Made by a program: the position numbers and the translations under genes
The notes under the pieces: generated by a model
Database searches by the model: none
The model's input: the letters and a program-made list of their open reading frames with translations, nothing else
What the model was told of the DNA's origin: nothing
Shown: in pieces, positions 26,309 through 39,211 of the stretch
How positions within the stretch are numbered: position 1 is the first letter of the stretch
How the letters are laid out: every line of letters starts with the position of its first letter
Assembly (NCBI RefSeq): GCF_001889005.1
Contig: NZ_CP018153.1
Coordinates: 2,914,890-2,978,889 of the forward strand
Origin: Christiangramia salexigens
Lineage (GTDB): Bacteria > Bacteroidota > Bacteroidia > Flavobacteriales > Flavobacteriaceae
DNA: 64,000 nt
Reading direction: 5' to 3'

Positions 26309-27079
26309 TTAGGTTAAAGCTTTAACATTTGCAACGAATTTATCTGTCTTTTCCAAGCCATGTTCGTTAATATGCTTAATAAAGGCACTTCCAATTATTG
26401 CTCCTTTGGCATATTGTGTAGCCTGATTAAAAGTGTCTTTATCTTTGATCCCAAAACCAACGATCTGTGGATTATTGAGGTTAAGCTCGTGAATTCTTTT
26501 GAAGTAGTCTCTGGTTTCATCGCTAAATCCTGATGTAGATCCTGTAACACTCGCGCTGCTTACCATATATATGAAACCATCTGAAACCGAGTCTATAAAT
26601 TTTATCCTTTCATCTGAAGTTTGTGGGGTAATGAGAAAGACGTTGATAAGGCCATATTTCTCAAATAATGACTGATATTTTTCGTGATATACATCTACGG
26701 GAAGATCGGGAATGATCAGTCCGTCAATACCGGCATTTTGGCACTTTTGGCAAAACTTTTCAACACCGTACTGAAGTATTGGATTAAAATAACCCATAAT
26801 GATCAATGGAATTTCTACCTCATTGCGGATTCCTTCAAGTTGTGCGAATAATTTTTGGGTTGTCATTCCATTTTTTAAAGCTTTAGTAGAGCTTTCCTGG
26901 ATAGTTGGTCCATCTGCTAAAGGATCGCTGAATGGGAGGCCAATTTCAATAAAATCAACGCCATTAGTTTCCAGATCTTTAATGATTCTGGTTGTATCAT
27001 TTATTTCCGGGTAACCCGCAGTGAAATATATTGAAAGCAATTTTTTATCTGCCTGTAACTTCTTCTTGATTCGGTTCAT
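26309..27079 (-). CDS. trpA: Tryptophan synthase alpha subunit
   Basis: 256 residues. Cleaves indole-3-glycerol phosphate to indole and glyceraldehyde 3-phosphate, channelling indole to TrpB. Motifs: YFTAGYPEINDT, DFIEIGLPFSDPLADGPTIQ with the catalytic Glu, IMGYFNPILQYG, GLIIPDLPVD with the catalytic Asp, and VGFGIKD. Last gene of the trpEGDCFBA operon, 66 bases after trpB. Confidence 0.98.
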   Translation of the reverse strand: MNRIKKKLQADKKLLSIYFTAGYPEINDTTRIIKDLETNGVDFIEIGLPFSDPLADGPTIQESSTKALKNGMTTQKLFAQLEGIRNEVEIPLIIMGYFNPILQYGVEKFCQKCQNAGIDGLIIPDLPVDVYHEKYQSLFEKYGLINVFLITPQTSDERIKFIDSVSDGFIYMVSSASVTGSTSGFSDETRDYFKRIHELNLNNPQIVGFGIKDKDTFNQATQYAKGAIIGSAFIKHINEHGLEKTDKFVANVKALT

Positions 27080-27145: not shown

Positions 27146-28327
27146 TTACAAATTAAAATAGTCGATATAGGTATTAAGGTCTTTATCTCCGCGTCCTGAA
27201 AGGTTGATAACTACAATATCATCTTCCTTGAATTTGCGGTCTTCAAAGATCGCTAAAGCGTGTGAGGTTTCTATTGCCGGAATGATTCCCTCTAACTTAG
27301 CAAGTTCCAGTCCTGCTTTCATAGCGGCCTCATCTGTGATACTGATGAATTCGCCTCGTCCACTTGTAAAGAGGTTTGCGTGCATTGGCCCTACACCCGG
27401 ATAATCAAGACCTGCAGAGATCGAATAAGGTTCTGTGATCTGGCCGTCACCGGTTTGCATCAATAAAGTTTTACTTCCGTGAATAATACCTGCATTTCCA
27501 AGTGCTGAGGTTGCTGCACTTTCTCCCGAATCAATTCCCTTTCCTGCAGCCTCTACAGCAATAATCCCAACTTTCGGGTTATCCAAATAGTGATAATAAG
27601 CTCCCGCAGCATTGCTTCCGCCGCCCACGCAGGCTACGACATAATCTGGATCTTCTTTGCCTTCTTTTTCCTTTAACTGATATTTGATCTCTTCTGAGAT
27701 TACACTTTGAAATCTGGCAACCATATCGGGGTAAGGATGTGGCCCCACTACAGATCCAATAATATAATGCGTATCTACCGGATTATTGATCCAATCCCTT
27801 ATAGCTTCATTGGTAGCGTCCTTTAGTGTTTTACTTCCCGATTTTGCGGGAACCACCTTTGCACCAAGCATTTTCATTCTCGCAACATTTGGAGCCTGTC
27901 TTTCTATATCTATTTCTCCCATATATACGATACACTCCATGCCCATTAGTGCGCAAACCGTAGCGGTTGCAACACCATGCTGGCCGGCACCCGTTTCGGC
28001 AATGATCCTTTTCTTGCCCAACTTTTGAGCCATCAGGATCTGGCCAATGGTATTATTCACTTTATGTGCGCCTGTATGACAAAGATCTTCTCTTTTTAAG
28101 TAAACCTTAGTGCCGTATTTTTCACTAAATCGTTTAGCATAATATAAAGGAGTTGGCCTGCCAACATATTCTCTTAGCAGATCCTTGAACTCTTTTTGAA
28201 AAGACTCTTCCTGCATTATTTTTAAATAGCGGGAACGTAATTCTTCTACATTAGGATATAGCATTTCTGGGATGTAAGCACCTCCAAATTCACCATAATA
28301 CCCTTTTTCATCAACCTGATAGCTCAT
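27146..28327 (-). CDS. trpB: Tryptophan synthase beta subunit
   Basis: 393 residues, PLP enzyme joining indole and serine. [12 protein letters not shown] at the start, [17 protein letters not shown] with the PLP lysine, [27 protein letters not shown] for phosphate binding, and [16 protein letters not shown]. Ordinary TrpB1 length and motifs. One base separates it from trpF. Confidence 0.99.
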
Positions 28328-28328
28328 C

Positions 28329-29042
28329 TTAGGAATTTATCTGTGTTTTGAATTCTTTCAATTCTTTAATTTTCTTAAGTCCTGGTTTTAATTCGAACTT
28401 ACTATTTACATCAACTGCATAAAGCAGTCCCGGTTTGCCTATTTTTAAAAAGTGACTTTTAAGATTAGAAATGGCTCTTCCATGCTCCGGGCCAATTCCT
28501 CCGCTCAGGAAAAAAGGTGTGTTGGATGGATAATTTTTTAAAATATCCCAGTCAAATTCTTCGCCATTGCCTCCTCTTAGGACCCCTTTAGTGTCAAACA
28601 AAAAATAATCAACTATGCCTTCATATGCCTTGATCTCCTGGAAATTGAAATCATCACCTACAGAAAAAACCTTTATAAGCTCAGGGGTATTTCCTAATTT
28701 TTGTAGGTCGGTTTTGAGATCCTTGCAGAATTCTGCCGTTTCATCCCCGTGAAGCTGAATAGCATTAAGAGAATAATTTTCAATTTTTTCCAGAATATTT
28801 TCTGCTGTTTCGTTTACAAAAACACCTGCTTTCTTGATTTTTGAAGAGATCTCAGGAAGATCATCTTTAAAATATCTCGGGGATTTTTCATAAAAAATGA
28901 ATCCCATATAATCGGGTTCGATCTCGGAGATCTGAATCATGTTACCGGGCTGTTGCATCCCGCAAACTTTAAGACTTAGACCAGAGCTTTTTCCTGAAGC
29001 AGGAGTGATCATAGATTTTTCTTGCATGCTTTTCTGATTCAT
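28329..29042 (-). CDS. trpF: Phosphoribosylanthranilate isomerase
   Basis: 237 residues, somewhat long for TrpF because 24 residues precede the usual start motif [36 protein letters not shown] and [11 protein letters not shown] are the family motifs, with the catalytic Cys in KVCGM. The ATG at 29042 directly abuts the trpC stop codon. The extra N-terminal residues may be real or translation may start at an internal ATG. Confidence 0.96.
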
Positions 29043-29834
29043 TTATTTGTGCGATTTTAATTCGGAAATAAATTTTATGGCGGCGCTTGCGGGATCATTG
29101 GTCTTCATGAAATTCTCACCAATTAGGAATCCTTTATATCCATACTCTCTGAGATCTGTTATGGCTTTAATATTGCTGATCCCACTTTCAGAAACTTTGA
29201 TAAATTCTGAGGGAATTAGTGGCGAAAGATTCTTACTGTTCTGAATATCTACCTCAAAGGTTTTAAGATTACGGTTGTTAACGCCAATCATATCTGCTTT
29301 TACTCTTAAAGACTTTTCTAATTCTTCTCTATTGTGAACTTCTAAGAGGACATCCAAGCCAAGATCTTTGGCAAATTTGGCAAAATATTCCAGTTGTTTC
29401 TTGGTGAGTACGGCCGCAATAAGAAGTATCGCATCTGCCCCATAAGCTTTGGCTTCAAGGATCTGATATTCATCTATCATAAAATCCTTCCTTAAAATTG
29501 GAGTCTTAACAGAGGCCCTTGCATAAAGCAGGTCATCCAGCGAGCCTCCAAAGTATTTTCCATCGGTTAATACAGAAATTCCTGAGGCCTCGGCTTTGGC
29601 GTATCCGGTAACTACATCCTGCACATTCTGGTCCTGATTAATTACAGATTTGGAAGGACTTCTTCTCTTATGTTCTGCTATGATTCCAGTTTCTGAATGC
29701 TTTATATTTTCAGCCAGTGAAATTATGCTTCTATTAAATAATGCTGATTTTTCCAATTGAGATTGAGGAACTATAGATTTCTTTAGTTCTACCTCCTTGA
29801 ATTTATCAGCTATGATCTTATCCAGTATATTCAT
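29043..29834 (-). CDS. trpC: Indole-3-glycerol phosphate synthase
   Basis: 263 residues, stand-alone enzyme (not fused to TrpF). IIAEHKRRSPSKSVIN contains the substrate-binding Lys, VLTDGKYFGGSLDDL, ILRKDFMIDEYQI, LLEVHNREEL and VNNRNLKTFEVD, and the late VSESGISN are conserved. It sits 6 bases after trpD and abuts trpF. Confidence 0.98.
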   Translation of the reverse strand: MNILDKIIADKFKEVELKKSIVPQSQLEKSALFNRSIISLAENIKHSETGIIAEHKRRSPSKSVINQDQNVQDVVTGYAKAEASGISVLTDGKYFGGSLDDLLYARASVKTPILRKDFMIDEYQILEAKAYGADAILLIAAVLTKKQLEYFAKFAKDLGLDVLLEVHNREELEKSLRVKADMIGVNNRNLKTFEVDIQNSKNLSPLIPSEFIKVSESGISNIKAITDLREYGYKGFLIGENFMKTNDPASAAIKFISELKSHK

Positions 29835-29840
29835 TTTATA

Positions 29841-30842
29841 CTAATTTGTTGCTTGGCTTAAATCGCGTAATTTTTTAAAACTTTCATAGGCTTTTCCTGA
29901 CTGAAGGGACTCCTTTGCCTTTTCAAATCCTTCAATAGGACTAAGATCCAATGAGGTGGCGATCGCCATTCCTGCGTTGGCACAGACCACATTGCGTTGA
30001 GCCTCCGTTCCATCTCCTTTTAAAATACCGGTAAGGATCTCTGCCGAACTTTCAATCGAGCCACCTCCTGCGATTTCTGCTGACTTCAATTGAGGAATTC
30101 CAAAATCTTCGGCCTTCAAAACTCTTTCAGAATTATTGCTAATGCTCTTTGTTTCACCGGTTAATGAGATTTCATCATATCCATCTAAAGCATGTAATAT
30201 GGTATAGTTTTTATCGGTATTTTGATAAAGATAAGCATACATTCGGGCTAATTCAAGGCTGAACACACCAACCAGCTGATTTTTAGGGAAAGCCGGATTA
30301 ACCATTGGCCCCAACATATTAAAGAATGTTTTTACTGCCAGACTCGTTCTTACTGGAGCTACATTTTTCATCGCCGGATGGAATAGGGGAGCATGTAAAA
30401 TACAAATATTGGCTTCTTCGATACATTTTTTTAAAAAGCCTTCGTCATTGCTAAACTTAATTCCAAGATGCTCCATTACATTAGAACTACCGCTAATAGA
30501 AGATACTCCATAATTTCCATGCTTTGCCACTTTTACACCGGCACCAGCAGTAACAAAAGAGGAAGTCGTAGAAATATTAAAGGTATCCTTACCATCACCT
30601 CCGGTTCCACATAGGTCAACCGCATTATAATCTTTAAGGTCTACTTTGATACATAGTTCCAACAGAGCATCTCTGAAGCCTTCAAGCTCCTGTATCGTAA
30701 TGCTTCTCATCATGTAGACCGTTAAAAAAGCTGCGATCTGTGTATCATTATACTTCCCTTCAGAAATATTGAATATGACCTGTTTGGCCTCTTCTGTACT
30801 TATGGTTTCATGACTAATAAGCCTATTGAGTAATTCTTTCAT
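29841..30842 (-). CDS. trpD: Anthranilate phosphoribosyltransferase
   Basis: 333 residues. Transfers phosphoribosyl from PRPP to anthranilate. Motifs: DLCGTGGDGKDTFNIST, KHGNYGVSSISGSSNVMEHLG, LHAPLFHPAMKNVAPVR and LGPMVNPA. It is separate from TrpG, unlike the fused enterobacterial TrpGD. Twenty bases separate it from trpG. Confidence 0.98.
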   Translation of the reverse strand: MKELLNRLISHETISTEEAKQVIFNISEGKYNDTQIAAFLTVYMMRSITIQELEGFRDALLELCIKVDLKDYNAVDLCGTGGDGKDTFNISTTSSFVTAGAGVKVAKHGNYGVSSISGSSNVMEHLGIKFSNDEGFLKKCIEEANICILHAPLFHPAMKNVAPVRTSLAVKTFFNMLGPMVNPAFPKNQLVGVFSLELARMYAYLYQNTDKNYTILHALDGYDEISLTGETKSISNNSERVLKAEDFGIPQLKSAEIAGGGSIESSAEILTGILKGDGTEAQRNVVCANAGMAIATSLDLSPIEGFEKAKESLQSGKAYESFKKLRDLSQATN

Positions 30843-30862: not shown

Positions 30863-31489
30863 TTAAATTTCAACTTTCGAATTTTCATTGGATGGGTCAT
30901 TCGTCACTTCTTCAGAATATTCTACCCAATTTCTGATCATTTGTTTACCATCTGGCGTTAAAACCGACTCCGGATGAAATTGAACTCCGCGCACATCATA
31001 GGTATTATGCCTTACAGACATGACCTCTCCCTTTTCATCATAACTGGTTGCCTGTAAGCATTCTGGTAATCTTTTATTTACTACCCAGGAATGATAGCGA
31101 CCTACCGGAAATTCATTATCAAGACCTTTAAAAAGGTATTCATCGTCTACAAATAATTTGATGTTCGTGGCTACACCGTGGTAAACCTCATCCAGATTGT
31201 CCAGGGTTCCACCGAAAACTTCGCCAATAGCCTGCATTCCAAGACAAACACCTAGAATTCTTTTTGAATCGGCATATTTTTGAATAATAGGTTTTAATAG
31301 TCCCGCTTCATCCGGTATACCCGGCCCTGGGGATAATAAAATGCAATCATAAGCATCAACCTCCTCAAGGCTTAACTGGTCGTTTCTTTTAACCACAACT
31401 TCACAATCAAGTTCCTCGAGATAGTGAACAAGGTTGTAAACAAAGGAATCATAATTATCTATTACCAGTATTTTTTTCATTTCTCTCAT
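30863..31489 (-). CDS. trpG: Anthranilate synthase glutamine amidotransferase subunit
   Basis: 208 residues, class I glutaminase giving ammonia to TrpE. ILVIDNYDSFVYNLVHYLEE at the start, LLSPGPGIPDEAG, LGVCLGMQAIGEVFGG with the nucleophile Cys, and VQFHPESVLTP with the catalytic His-Glu. An ATG 9 bases inside (MKKILVID) may be the true start. Could also act in folate synthesis as PabA, but its place between trpE and trpD points to tryptophan. Confidence 0.97.
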   Translation of the reverse strand: MREMKKILVIDNYDSFVYNLVHYLEELDCEVVVKRNDQLSLEEVDAYDCILLSPGPGIPDEAGLLKPIIQKYADSKRILGVCLGMQAIGEVFGGTLDNLDEVYHGVATNIKLFVDDEYLFKGLDNEFPVGRYHSWVVNKRLPECLQATSYDEKGEVMSVRHNTYDVRGVQFHPESVLTPDGKQMIRNWVEYSEEVTNDPSNENSKVEI

Positions 31490-31495
31490 TATGAT

Positions 31496-32890
31496 TTAGA
31501 TTTCTTCCGCAATTTCAAGGGCCTTAGTCAAAGCTCCGAGTTTATTGTAGACTTCCTGTAATTCGTTTTCTGGTTTTGACTCTGAAACTATTCCTGCACC
31601 GGCCTGATAATGAAGTTCATGATTTTTACTTACAAAAGACCGAATGATTATCGCGTGGTTAAAGTTGCCTTCAAAATCCATAAATCCTATGGCGCCTCCA
31701 TATGCACTTCTGTTAACATTCTCAAATTTTTCAATAAGTCGAAGAGCCATGGGTTTTGGAGCGCCGCTTAAGGTTCCTGCTGGGAAAGTGTCGGCCACAA
31801 TTTGAGGAGTAGAAATATTTGCATCCTTTTTACCTGTGACCTTGCTCACTAAATGGATCACATGACTAAAGAACTGAATCTCCCGATAGTTCTCAACTTT
31901 TACATCGCTACCGTGTCTGCTAAGATCATTTCTGGCCAGATCTACCAGCATAACGTGCTCGGCATTCTCTTTTTCATCTGCAGCAAGTTCTTTAGCGATC
32001 TCCGCATCCTTTTCATCGTTGCCGGTTCTTTTGAAGGTTCCGGCAATCGGGTGTATCTCTGCCCGGCCTTTATTCACAACCAATTGAGCTTCGGGAGAAC
32101 TTCCAAAGATCTTGAAATTGCCATAATCAAAATAAAACAGGTAAGGGGATGGGTTTACATTGCGAAGGGCCCTGTATACATTAAATTCATCACCTTTGAA
32201 TTTCTGAGAAAATCTTCTTGAGAGCACGAGTTGAAAAACGTCACCCCTGTGACAGTGTTCCTTTGCCGCATCTACTACCGCTCTATAATCTTCATCGCTG
32301 AGATTTGACTCAGGAGCTTTATCTCTGGAAAAATTATATGTCGCGAAATTCTTGACTTTCAATAATTGTTCGATCTCCTCGATCCTGCTTTCTGAATTAT
32401 AGCTATGGTCAAATATATATGCCTCATTCTTAAAGTGATTTATGGCGATTATATTCTGATAGACCGCGTAATAAATATCCGGGATCTGGAGATCTTTTTC
32501 TTTTCGTTTAATGTCTACATTCTCGAAATATCTTACGGAGTCGTAAGCTATATAACCGAAAAGTCCATTATTGATGAATTTAAATTCGGCAGAATTTGCT
32601 TTAAACTTATTTGAAAAGTCTTGAATCGCTTTTGGGATGGAGATAGATGTATCTATATCTGTATTGGAGATGCTGCCGTCTGGAAAATGTTCTGTAATAA
32701 CTTCATTTTGAACTTTAAATGAAGCTATTGGATTACAGCATATATAGGAAAAGCTGTTATCGCTGGCGTGATAGTCGCTACTCTCCAATAATAAACTATT
32801 GGGGTATTTATCTCTGAGCTTTAGGTAAATGCTTACAGGTGTTATAGTATCTGCAAGAATCTTCTTGTATTTGGTATTTAATTTGAACAT
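31496..32890 (-). CDS. trpE: Anthranilate synthase component I
   Basis: 464 residues from ATG 32890 (MFKLNTKYKKILADT). An upstream in-frame ATG at 32935 lies within the attenuator hairpin, so the shorter start is preferred. LLESSDYH near the start corresponds to the Trp-binding LLES element of feedback-inhibited TrpE. The C-terminal chorismate domain shows FQLVLSRRFS, NPSPYLFYFDYG, HPIAGTFKRTGN, DEKENAEHVMLVDLARNDL, GTLSGAPKPMAL and GAGIVSESKPENE. First structural gene of the operon. Confidence 0.98.
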   Translation of the reverse strand: MFKLNTKYKKILADTITPVSIYLKLRDKYPNSLLLESSDYHASDNSFSYICCNPIASFKVQNEVITEHFPDGSISNTDIDTSISIPKAIQDFSNKFKANSAEFKFINNGLFGYIAYDSVRYFENVDIKRKEKDLQIPDIYYAVYQNIIAINHFKNEAYIFDHSYNSESRIEEIEQLLKVKNFATYNFSRDKAPESNLSDEDYRAVVDAAKEHCHRGDVFQLVLSRRFSQKFKGDEFNVYRALRNVNPSPYLFYFDYGNFKIFGSSPEAQLVVNKGRAEIHPIAGTFKRTGNDEKDAEIAKELAADEKENAEHVMLVDLARNDLSRHGSDVKVENYREIQFFSHVIHLVSKVTGKKDANISTPQIVADTFPAGTLSGAPKPMALRLIEKFENVNRSAYGGAIGFMDFEGNFNHAIIIRSFVSKNHELHYQAGAGIVSESKPENELQEVYNKLGALTKALEIAEEI

Positions 32891-32910
32891 TAAATCTTTA
32901 AATTTTGAAA

Positions 32911-32940
32911 TAAAAAAAGGCTTGTCGTGAGACAAGCCTT
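32911..32940 (-). terminator. trp attenuator terminator
   Basis: On the minus strand AAGGCTTGTC and GACAAGCCTT pair perfectly around a TCAC loop and are followed by T7, just 20 bases before the trpE ATG and after the Trp-rich leader peptide. It would stop transcription before trpE when the leader is fully translated. Confidence 0.88.
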
Positions 32941-32970
32941 ATAGTTTATATAATTGAATGGCAGGTTAGC

Positions 32971-33027
32971 TCACGAATTTCGACGTAAGTTATTCCACCA
33001 CCAGTTATTTAATTTCATTGAAAACAT
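32971..33027 (-). CDS. trpL: trp operon leader peptide (three tandem Trp codons)
   Basis: An 18-codon frame, MFSMKLNNWWWNNLRRNS then TGA, with TGG TGG TGG at codons 9-11. Three consecutive Trp in such a short frame, directly upstream of a strong terminator hairpin and trpE, is the hallmark of ribosome-mediated attenuation. The -7 box ends 5 bases before the first ATG, so translation may start at the second ATG (33018, 15 residues) or on a leaderless message. UGGUGG of the Trp codons can pair with CCUGCCA at 32965-32959, and GUGAG overlapping the stop codon (32974-32970) can pair with CUCAC in the terminator (32931-32927). Confidence 0.85.
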   Translation of the reverse strand: MFSMKLNNWWWNNLRRNS

Positions 33028-33032
33028 GGTCT

Positions 33033-33063
33033 CAAAGATAGAAACGAAATTATTCTAAACAAA
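33033..33063 (-). promoter_or_regulatory. trp operon promoter
   Basis: Minus-strand TTTG (33063-33060), a 19-base spacer, then TATCTTTG (33040-33033). This is an exact match to the Bacteroidota -33/-7 consensus. Transcription should begin at about 33029-33026, right at the leader peptide. Confidence 0.8.
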
Positions 33064-33074
33064 GGTTTTTAAAA

Positions 33075-33106
33075 GAAAAATCCTGAAGTAAATTCACTTC
33101 AGGATT
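33075..33106 (-). terminator. Terminator of the marR-nitroreductase-yceI operon
   Basis: AATCCTGAAGTG and ACTTCAGGATT arms followed by T5 on the minus strand, 6 bases after the yceI stop. Confidence 0.8.
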
Positions 33107-33111
33107 AATCC

Positions 33112-33681
33112 TTAAAACTTAAGATTAACGTCAAGTTCAAAGTTGTCATAAATGGTTTTGTCTCCCAGATTGTCAAAGAAACTTCCTGAACCATATCTAA
33201 CATCATATTTAGATCTGTCAATTGTCAAGTGAGTTGAAGCTGAATCTCCAACCATCTTAAGATCGAAAGTTATTGGATGAGTTTTCTCTTTAATAGTAAG
33301 GTCGGCAACTATACCGTAAGAGCCGGTTCCTTTCTTAGCAGCACTGGTTATTACCAATTTTGCATTCGGATATTTTTCAACCCCGAAAAAATCTTCAGAT
33401 TTCAAGTGTCCTTCAAGTTTACCTTTGCTCTCGCCTGTTAAGTCTGTTACGGTTATTGTACTCATATCCATTACAAATTCACCACCGACGATCTTTTCAT
33501 CCTCCATCATAAGGTGACCGCTTTTCAGCTTAATTGTTCCATTATGTGAACCGGTAACTTTTTCCCCTGTCCAGGTAATAGTACTTGCATCAACATTCAC
33601 TTCTTGTTTGGTGTTTGTAAAAGCGACAGTAATTAAAAGCACTAATACCGCGATTCCTCCTTTAAATAATTGATTTTTCAT
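33112..33681 (-). CDS. YceI-family periplasmic lipid-binding protein
   Basis: 189 residues. A signal peptide (about 1-24) then a YceI lipocalin-like barrel: VDASTITWTGEKVTGSHNGTIKL, GGEFVMDMSTITVTDL, LEGHLKSEDFFGVEKYPNAKLVI and DLTIKEKTHPITFDL. Family members bind polyprenoids or fatty amides; in this group YceI often follows a nitroreductase. It is the third gene of a unit starting with marR, 19 bases after the nitroreductase. Confidence 0.93.
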   Translation of the reverse strand: MKNQLFKGGIAVLVLLITVAFTNTKQEVNVDASTITWTGEKVTGSHNGTIKLKSGHLMMEDEKIVGGEFVMDMSTITVTDLTGESKGKLEGHLKSEDFFGVEKYPNAKLVITSAAKKGTGSYGIVADLTIKEKTHPITFDLKMVGDSASTHLTIDRSKYDVRYGSGSFFDNLGDKTIYDNFELDVNLKF

Positions 33682-38812: not shown

Positions 38813-39211
38813 TGGTGGAGTCGGAGGGGTTCGAACCCTCGTCCAAACAAGCAATTCAGAAGCTTTCTACACGTTTAGTCTTCGTTTAATTGTCGATGCA
38901 AAGCCGGCCGAAAACCACCAACTTTACACGTATCCTCACTTAGATTTCGCAACCGCATCAAGGCCCTGCGGGTACTATATTTACTTTATCGGTGCCTCTA
39001 ATGTGGACGCCGTAAATCAAGGCTTCCACGAGACATCTTGGCTCCCTGCCTTGCAGGGACTAAGTATAACCTACTATGATTCGGTTACGCAGCCAAGGCG
39101 TAGTTATTCTCGCCGTTTAAAAAGTCTGAAATATGATATTTACGAGCTATATCCCAGCGCTCGACGTGCTTACAACTCAATTAGACTCGCTGTCAAAACC
39201 AAGTCGACCCC
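38813..39211 (-). ncRNA. ssrA: tmRNA (transfer-messenger RNA)
   Basis: 399 bases, minus strand. The 5' end GGGGTCGACTTGG pairs with the 3' end CGACTCCACCA to form the acceptor stem; the T arm contains GGTTCGAACCC. The tag frame (39114-39085) reads GGC GAG AAT AAC TAC GCC TTG GCT GCG TAA, giving GENNYALAA, the typical Bacteroidota tag for degradation. The CCA is encoded. tmRNA with SmpB frees stalled ribosomes; smpB is not in this window. Confidence 0.97.

Follow-up and report, generated by a model that had tools for sequence, protein, structure and literature searches.

A predicted ribosome-mediated transcription attenuator before the trpEGDCFBA operon of Christiangramia salexigens: membership in the Bacteroid-trp family, range across Bacteroidota and a putative almost leaderless leader transcript

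Background

The E. coli scheme of trp attenuation combines a leader with tryptophan codons and competing 1:2, 2:3 and 3:4 helices, and the enterobacterial trp leader is read from a Shine-Dalgarno site. Bacteroidota are, to our knowledge, a phylum without Shine-Dalgarno sites. A trp leader of this phylum, Bacteroid-trp (Rfam RF01692), has been in print since 2010, when it was listed in Table 1 of PMC2864571. According to the available text of PMC6414381 (2019), Bacteroid-trp is like the E. coli leader and is conserved upstream of the trp operon of F. psychrophilum, which bears out the suspicion, voiced in an earlier note on the DNA studied here, that attenuators had already been predicted in relatives. 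Structured RNAs at 5' ends in F. psychrophilum, a member of the same bacterial family as C. salexigens, were described in PMC9723704 (2021), where leader-peptide attenuation is proposed from clues upstream of amino-acid operons, as far as the available text goes; trp, as a word or the start of one, is absent from its main text. The name Bacteroid-trp also occurs in the available text of PMC4977773, on tsetse iron metabolism, and the parts of PMC2965389 and PMC4833913 that were available contain no Bacteroidota trp leader. In another phylum, the S. meliloti trpL leader (rnTrpL) is a tryptophan attenuator with the 5' end of its transcript at the leader ATG, as stated in the accessible part of PMC7298713.

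In this work, comparative genomics and computed RNA folding were applied to a window of 64,000 nt of the C. salexigens genome (the whole stretch of DNA analyzed), in which positions 32912-33063 of the minus strand form a trp attenuator region directly before trpEGDCFBA. From its sequence and modeled folds, this region is very probably a ribosome-mediated transcription attenuator of trpEGDCFBA and a member of Rfam Bacteroid-trp. The element as such is already known; the extended antiterminator, the range of the system and the predicted leaderless start are refinements.

Results and discussion

The trp locus and the parts of its leader

The operon and the sequence preceding its promoter comprise the following features:

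26309-27079, minus strand: trpA (TIGR00262, 240 bits, cut-off 102)
27146-28327, minus strand: trpB (TIGR00263, 587 bits, cut-off 392)
28329-29042, minus strand: trpF (NF002298, 130 bits, below the cut-off of 215; assigned also by operon position)
29043-29834, minus strand: trpC (NF001377, 302 bits, cut-off 260)
29841-30842, minus strand: trpD (TIGR01245, 322 bits, cut-off 199)
30863-31489, minus strand: trpG (TIGR00566, trpG_papA, 184.6 bits, cut-off 121)
31496-32890, minus strand: trpE, anthranilate synthase component I (best-matching model TIGR00564 with 427 bits, short of its curated cut-off of 517.7; assigned also by the context of trpGDCFBA)
33106-33079, minus strand: strong terminator-like hairpin after the upstream YceI-domain gene, directly before the trp promoter

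The 11 closest TrpE proteins are 87-90% identical and all come from genomes named Christiangramia or Gramella. Elsewhere in the window, a tmRNA gene lies at 38813-39211 on the minus strand (RF00023, 137.9 bits). Between the trp promoter and trpE, the leader is made up as follows:

33060-33063, minus strand: -33 promoter element TTTG, read directly
33033-33040, minus strand: -7 promoter element TATCTTTG (TAnnTTTG), read directly
32971-33027, minus strand: leader peptide frame MFSMKLNNWWWNNLRRNS, 18 codons (ATG at 33027, stop TGA at 32973-32971)
32995-33003, minus strand: three Trp codons TGGTGGTGG, read directly and conserved in relatives
32984-32989, minus strand: strand 1, CTTACG, which sequesters CGTGAG when no ribosome is present (minimum free energy fold, pairing probability 0.91)
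32970-32976, minus strand: strand 2, TCGTGAG, the antiterminator strand, which overlaps the leader stop codon and contains GTGAG (32974-32970)
32959-32965, minus strand: CCTGCCA, which pairs with the Trp codons in an outer, pause-like hairpin in computed folds
32925-32940, minus strand: strand 3, AAGGCTTGTCTCACGA, the partner of strand 2: terminator 5' arm, loop and first 2 nt of the 3' arm
32917-32940, minus strand: intrinsic terminator hairpin, a perfect 10 bp (32940-32931 with 32926-32917) with the 4-nt loop TCAC
32912-32916, minus strand: terminator T tail, T5, read directly

The T tail is separated by 21 nt from the trpE ATG at 32890, and the two promoter elements by a 19-nt spacer. Several of these parts had been pointed out in the earlier note, which gave no strand; all of them are read on the minus strand. 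The promoter TTTG-N19-TATCTTTG (33063-33033), the 18-codon frame with its three Trp codons (from the ATG to the TGA ending at 32971) and the pairing of the Trp codons with CCTGCCA (32965-32959) are all present as proposed. The perfect 10-pair terminator before trpE likewise stands; of the T7 counted there (32918-32912), two T belong to the stem and the unpaired tail is T5. The proposed antiterminator between GUGAG and CUCAC (32931-32927, in the terminator) exists and had been understated, since its core is a helix of 7 bp, TCGTGAG with CTCACGA, and it extends in the computed folds to GGC of the terminator 5' arm. There, GCC of CCTGCCA finds a second partner in that arm. The leader folds with a z-score of -4.05 (0/200 shuffles were equally stable), and the terminator palindrome is a single site in the 2.98-Mb genome. 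A sigma-70 promoter scan was set aside, being unsuited to Bacteroidota promoters.

A known RNA family described by a fragment of the element

The leader matches RF01692 with 57.1 bits against a cut-off of 49, over model positions 1-131 of 131; in agreement with this family, it is situated before tryptophan biosynthesis genes, at the same site before trpE, and contains the short frame with Trp codons and the same Trp-codon hairpin. The matched stretch covers 33047-32931, while the working element reaches 32912 on one side and its promoter 33063 on the other: the last model positions correspond to GGCUUGUC, within the 5' arm of the terminator, so that neither the terminator nor the antiterminator is included. 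Its range is similarly restricted. Of 198 Bacteroidota genomes searched at E<=0.01, with filters that lose some weak matches, 21 contained RF01692, in 16 cases above the cut-off; the 21 are made up of 19 genomes of the same family as C. salexigens, its own included, and 2 others. No genome of the family was among the 20 misses listed by kinship, with 157 further misses. In a set of 14 control genomes, a match over the cut-off was obtained in Bacteroides ihuae. The catalogued RF01692 model is therefore a fragment of the working element and is narrow in range.

The only other Rfam match at gathering level in the whole window is the tmRNA. The enterobacterial trp attenuator (RF00513, Trp_leader) shares the logic of the element, but the window is no sequence member of it (17 bits against a cut-off of 41). 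No T-box was detected at gathering level in the window, nor among the 25 matches up to E 10 in 32850-33130.

Proposed mechanism and the switch computed on nascent RNA

We propose the following course of events. Transcription would begin about 1 nt upstream of the leader ATG, with a ribosome translating the 18-codon leader behind RNA polymerase. With sufficient Trp-tRNA, the ribosome would reach the stop codon (32973-32971) and cover TCGTGAG, so that the terminator (32940-32917) would form and transcription would stop before trpE. When Trp-tRNA is short, the ribosome would stall on the Trp codons and break the outer hairpin; strand 2 would then be available for pairing with CTCACGA and the nascent terminator 5' arm, and RNA polymerase would read through. 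In the RNA of the window, CTTACG would hold strand 2 when no ribosome is present, and the terminator would again form.

Folding was computed for nascent RNA that ended within the first bases of the 3' arm of the terminator, with the ribosome placed position by position and assumed to hide everything up to 11 nt past the A site. In the window, stalling at any one of the three Trp codons gives the antiterminator a probability of 0.98, versus 0.08 in ribosome-free RNA, in which strand 2 is bound by CTTACG at 0.91; a ribosome on the stop codon hides strand 2, and the antiterminator is then impossible by construction. The state-by-state folding thus gives the outcome anticipated earlier, that a ribosome stalled on the Trp codons frees GUGAG and one at the stop codon covers it. 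The same computation was applied to the 80 assessable loci described below. Stalling at Trp codon 2 or 3 gives an antiterminator probability of >0.5 in 80/80 loci, at Trp codon 3 it lies above the free state in 80/80, and GGC of the terminator 5' arm is mostly paired upstream under stalling in 76/80. Under the assumed footprint, a mutually exclusive antiterminator and terminator, switched by ribosome position, are accordingly seen in the computed folds of nascent RNA, and the short leader frame carries codons for the amino acid made by the operon.

Once the 3' arm is complete, equilibrium folding favors the terminator in every ribosome state. Since the finished RNA forms the terminator regardless, antitermination must be kinetic, with the choice made during transcription and the antiterminator presumably trapped there. 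The default-off hairpin, i.e., the sequestration of strand 2 by strand 1, is not universal: free nascent RNA already favors the antiterminator in 26/80 loci, and strand 2 is held upstream at >0.5 in 49/80 only.

Conservation among flavobacterial relatives

The close comparison comprised 81 loci from named genomes (the window and the best 80 of at least 586 TrpE loci), all of them flavobacteria and relatives at the family level. Three Trp codons (WWW, TGGTGGTGG) lie upstream of trpE in 80 of the 81, the exception being L074, whose contig ends 35 nt upstream of trpE and which leaves 80 assessable loci. An ATG stands exactly 8 codons before WWW in 75 of these and at 7 codons in 2, while in the remaining 3 (L054, L064, L079) the codon at the start position is TTG instead. 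A pattern search found the terminator hairpin in 80/80, and all 80 have CGTGA near the end of the frame, whose pairing partner is TCACG, located in the loop and 3' arm of the terminator. These counts agree with the central claim of the earlier note, a ribosome-mediated trp attenuator, in which the Trp codons, the CGTGA strand and the terminator belong together.

CGTGA supplies the in-frame stop codon in 59/80 loci; 21 were scored otherwise, and two of these frames (L043 and L048) end at a second copy of CGTGA, which leaves 19 real cases of a CGTGA kept though it is not the stop codon. The motif therefore appears to be kept as RNA. In those 19 loci, the first base of the stop codon is at most 8 nt away, on either side, from the first base of CGTGA, and a terminating ribosome would therefore still cover the motif.

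An alignment of the regions upstream of trpE had been suggested as a check of conserved Trp codons and of a covarying hairpin, and its result is divided. It contains 51 of the 80 leaders (the window row is 3 nt short and lacks the leader ATG). Trp codons and hairpin are conserved, and RNAalifold returns the terminator alone, with 3/10 pairs changed on both sides. In the antiterminator core, no pair changed on both sides among the 51 leaders; within the family this helix hardly varies and its lack of covariation is uninformative there. The terminator sequence is conserved beyond the need of a hairpin. A covarying neighbor pair (the base after CGTGA and the base before TCAC) is able to pair in just 31/76 loci and is not claimed.

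If the hairpin were merely a constitutive terminator or that of the upstream gene, the short frame would have arisen by chance. TGGTGGTGG is indeed common, with 53 copies in the genome versus 44 of the reversed pattern, a count that is uninformative alone. The YceI-domain gene, however, has its own terminator-like hairpin before the trp promoter, so that the trp transcript looks like a separate unit, and the leader frame, CGTGA and the hairpin are kept together in 80/80 assessable loci, against no match in the controls described below. We regard this explanation as extremely improbable and retain ribosome-mediated attenuation.

In two loci, a small gene with a GIY-YIG domain (Pfam PF01541) lies between the trp attenuator and trpE (L018:1143-1439 and L066:1159-1449). 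Similar short frames occur in L020, L021, L027, L038, L050 and L057; PF01541 was scored for L018 and L066.

Range across the phylum

Out of 148 genomes drawn from the phylum, 129 had a TrpE match at E<=1e-60, the genome of C. salexigens included. Regions upstream of trpE were analyzed for 69 of the other 128: the 29 best matches and 40 of the remaining 99, hand-chosen over many families. A leader was defined as a frame of at most 60 codons with WW or WxW, followed by a terminator. By this rule, a Trp-rich leader with a terminator precedes trpE in 53/69 genomes (14/14 within the family and 39/55 outside it), spread over 17/25 families, whereas the controls yielded 0/69 reverse complements, 0/69 reversed sequences and 0/29 downstream flanks. 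The combination was not found in 16/69 genomes. These include two (L146 and L153) with a WWW frame and no terminator by the rule, all sampled genomes of three families (f16, 4/4; f27, 3/3; f14, 2/2), and the single genomes sampled from f11, f17, f25 and f29.

The complementarity of each leader end, counted from the end of the Trp cluster, to its own terminator was compared with dinucleotide shuffles for 54 leaders, including that of the window. It reached p<=0.05 in 34/54 and p<=0.01 in 20/54; outside the family the numbers were 22/39 and 12/39, and the median by family was p<=0.05 in 8 of the 17. Counted from the last Trp of the peptide instead, 37/54 leaders had p<=0.05. From this latter point (mis-set in L140 and L155) a swap test was also carried out, in which the own terminator was strictly the best against foreign ones in 25/54 and the own leader in 18/54. 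Terminator sequences differ between families, yet complementarity between a leader end and its own terminator is frequent: the antiterminator pairing is conserved overall, and weakly or not visibly so in some families. In L138, a leader from another family, the end is similar to the 5' arm of the terminator, and its partners would instead be the loop and the 3' arm; read by eye, this is a different route to blocking the terminator, with p 0.53 in the shuffle test.

These comparisons bear on the possibility that tryptophan is sensed otherwise, by a small-molecule riboswitch, a T-box or an RNA-binding protein, the Trp codons being incidental. The excess conservation of the terminator among flavobacteria could also be caused by a trans-acting factor. 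Pairing with strand 2 already explains that conservation, however, and beyond the family many leaders retain complementarity in spite of sequence change. Moreover, the window holds no further Rfam family at cut-off except the tmRNA, and T-boxes were present in 0/7 Bacteroidetes/Chlorobi genomes according to the available text of PMC2494555. Sensing by such means is accordingly highly improbable compared with sensing by the translating ribosome.

Promoter position and the predicted transcript start

The promoter found before the leader has a further consequence, on which the earlier note was silent: the predicted 5' end of the transcript falls about 1 nt upstream of the leader ATG. In the map of F. 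psychrophilum transcription starts, the TAnnTTTG box lies at -12 to -5 (PMC9723704, in the text available). In the window, TATCTTTG ends 5 nt before the leader ATG, and the same rule predicts a start at 33028. The trp leader transcript may therefore be almost leaderless, as judged from promoter position. In this it would differ from the enterobacterial leader with its Shine-Dalgarno site and would resemble S. meliloti trpL as described.

Among the 80 loci, the distance from box to start is exactly 5 nt in 40, 5-9 nt in 55 and 14-22 nt in 21; no box was found within 40 nt in 4/80 (the contig of L011 starts 4 nt upstream; in L020 and L021, two of the four, a box is placed 38 nt upstream). For the 76 loci with a box, the -33 element located 18-20 nt from it reads TTTG in 46 and TTG alone in 24, and TTTG stands exactly 19 nt before the -7 box in 43. 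Such short distances are rare in the background. Over 400 kb of the C. salexigens genome, 62 of 308 frames have a box at <=100 nt, of which 5/62 are within 9 nt and none at 5 (1/25 within 9 nt when the -33 element is also present); in the window, 2 of 21 box-bearing frames are within 9 nt, both at 5. In the phylum sample, distances were taken to whichever candidate ATG lay nearest and the box was relaxed to TAnnTT[TC]G, so that the values lean towards short distances. Here the box is at <=10 nt in 5/14 leaders of the family and at 16-20 nt in 9/14, which for these nine speaks against a leaderless reading; outside the family, 22/39 leaders have a box, within 10 nt of an ATG in 19.

Leaderless mRNAs make up 5.5% of those mapped in F. 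psychrophilum, and about 3.7% of 5' UTRs in B. thetaiotaomicron are <10 nt (PMC9723704 and PMC7366714, respectively, both as far as available). A literature search judged by titles and abstract openings, with most of the subscription literature outside it, gave, among the papers listed, no apparent description of a leaderless trp leader in Bacteroidota. Given the leaderless leader of S. meliloti, such a start would be new for the phylum at most.

The S. meliloti system also suggests by analogy an attenuator whose main output acts in trans, through the released leader RNA or peptide, as described for rnTrpL and peTrpL in the accessible part of PMC7298713. The product of termination would indeed be a leader RNA of about 117 nt (33028-32912) with its 5' end near the ATG. 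Nothing seen points to a trans target, though, and the reading is compatible with attenuation itself; as an account of the main output we hold it to be highly unlikely, and attenuation of trpEGDCFBA in cis remains our interpretation.

Conclusions

Taken together, we think it rather probable that tryptophan attenuation is widespread in the phylum beyond the Rfam model and employs leaderless or nearly leaderless leaders in many clades, that of C. salexigens included, with turnover of terminator and antiterminator sequences under kept complementarity of strands 2 and 3. RF01692, being incomplete and narrow, can be rebuilt. The GIY-YIG-type gene 3' of the attenuator in several flavobacteria would be under its control. 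By sequence, the logic of enterobacterial attenuation appears in many families of Bacteroidota with different initiation signals, and the predicted leaderless start provides a concrete case for ribosome loading on a leader peptide without Shine-Dalgarno sites, bearing on the regulatory use of leaderless initiation. If the prediction is true, the first leader codon is at the RNA 5' end and the sensing ribosome would be loaded directly behind RNA polymerase; other clades of the family, with a predicted 5' UTR of about 10-18 nt, would then indicate that the start has shifted within one attenuator lineage.
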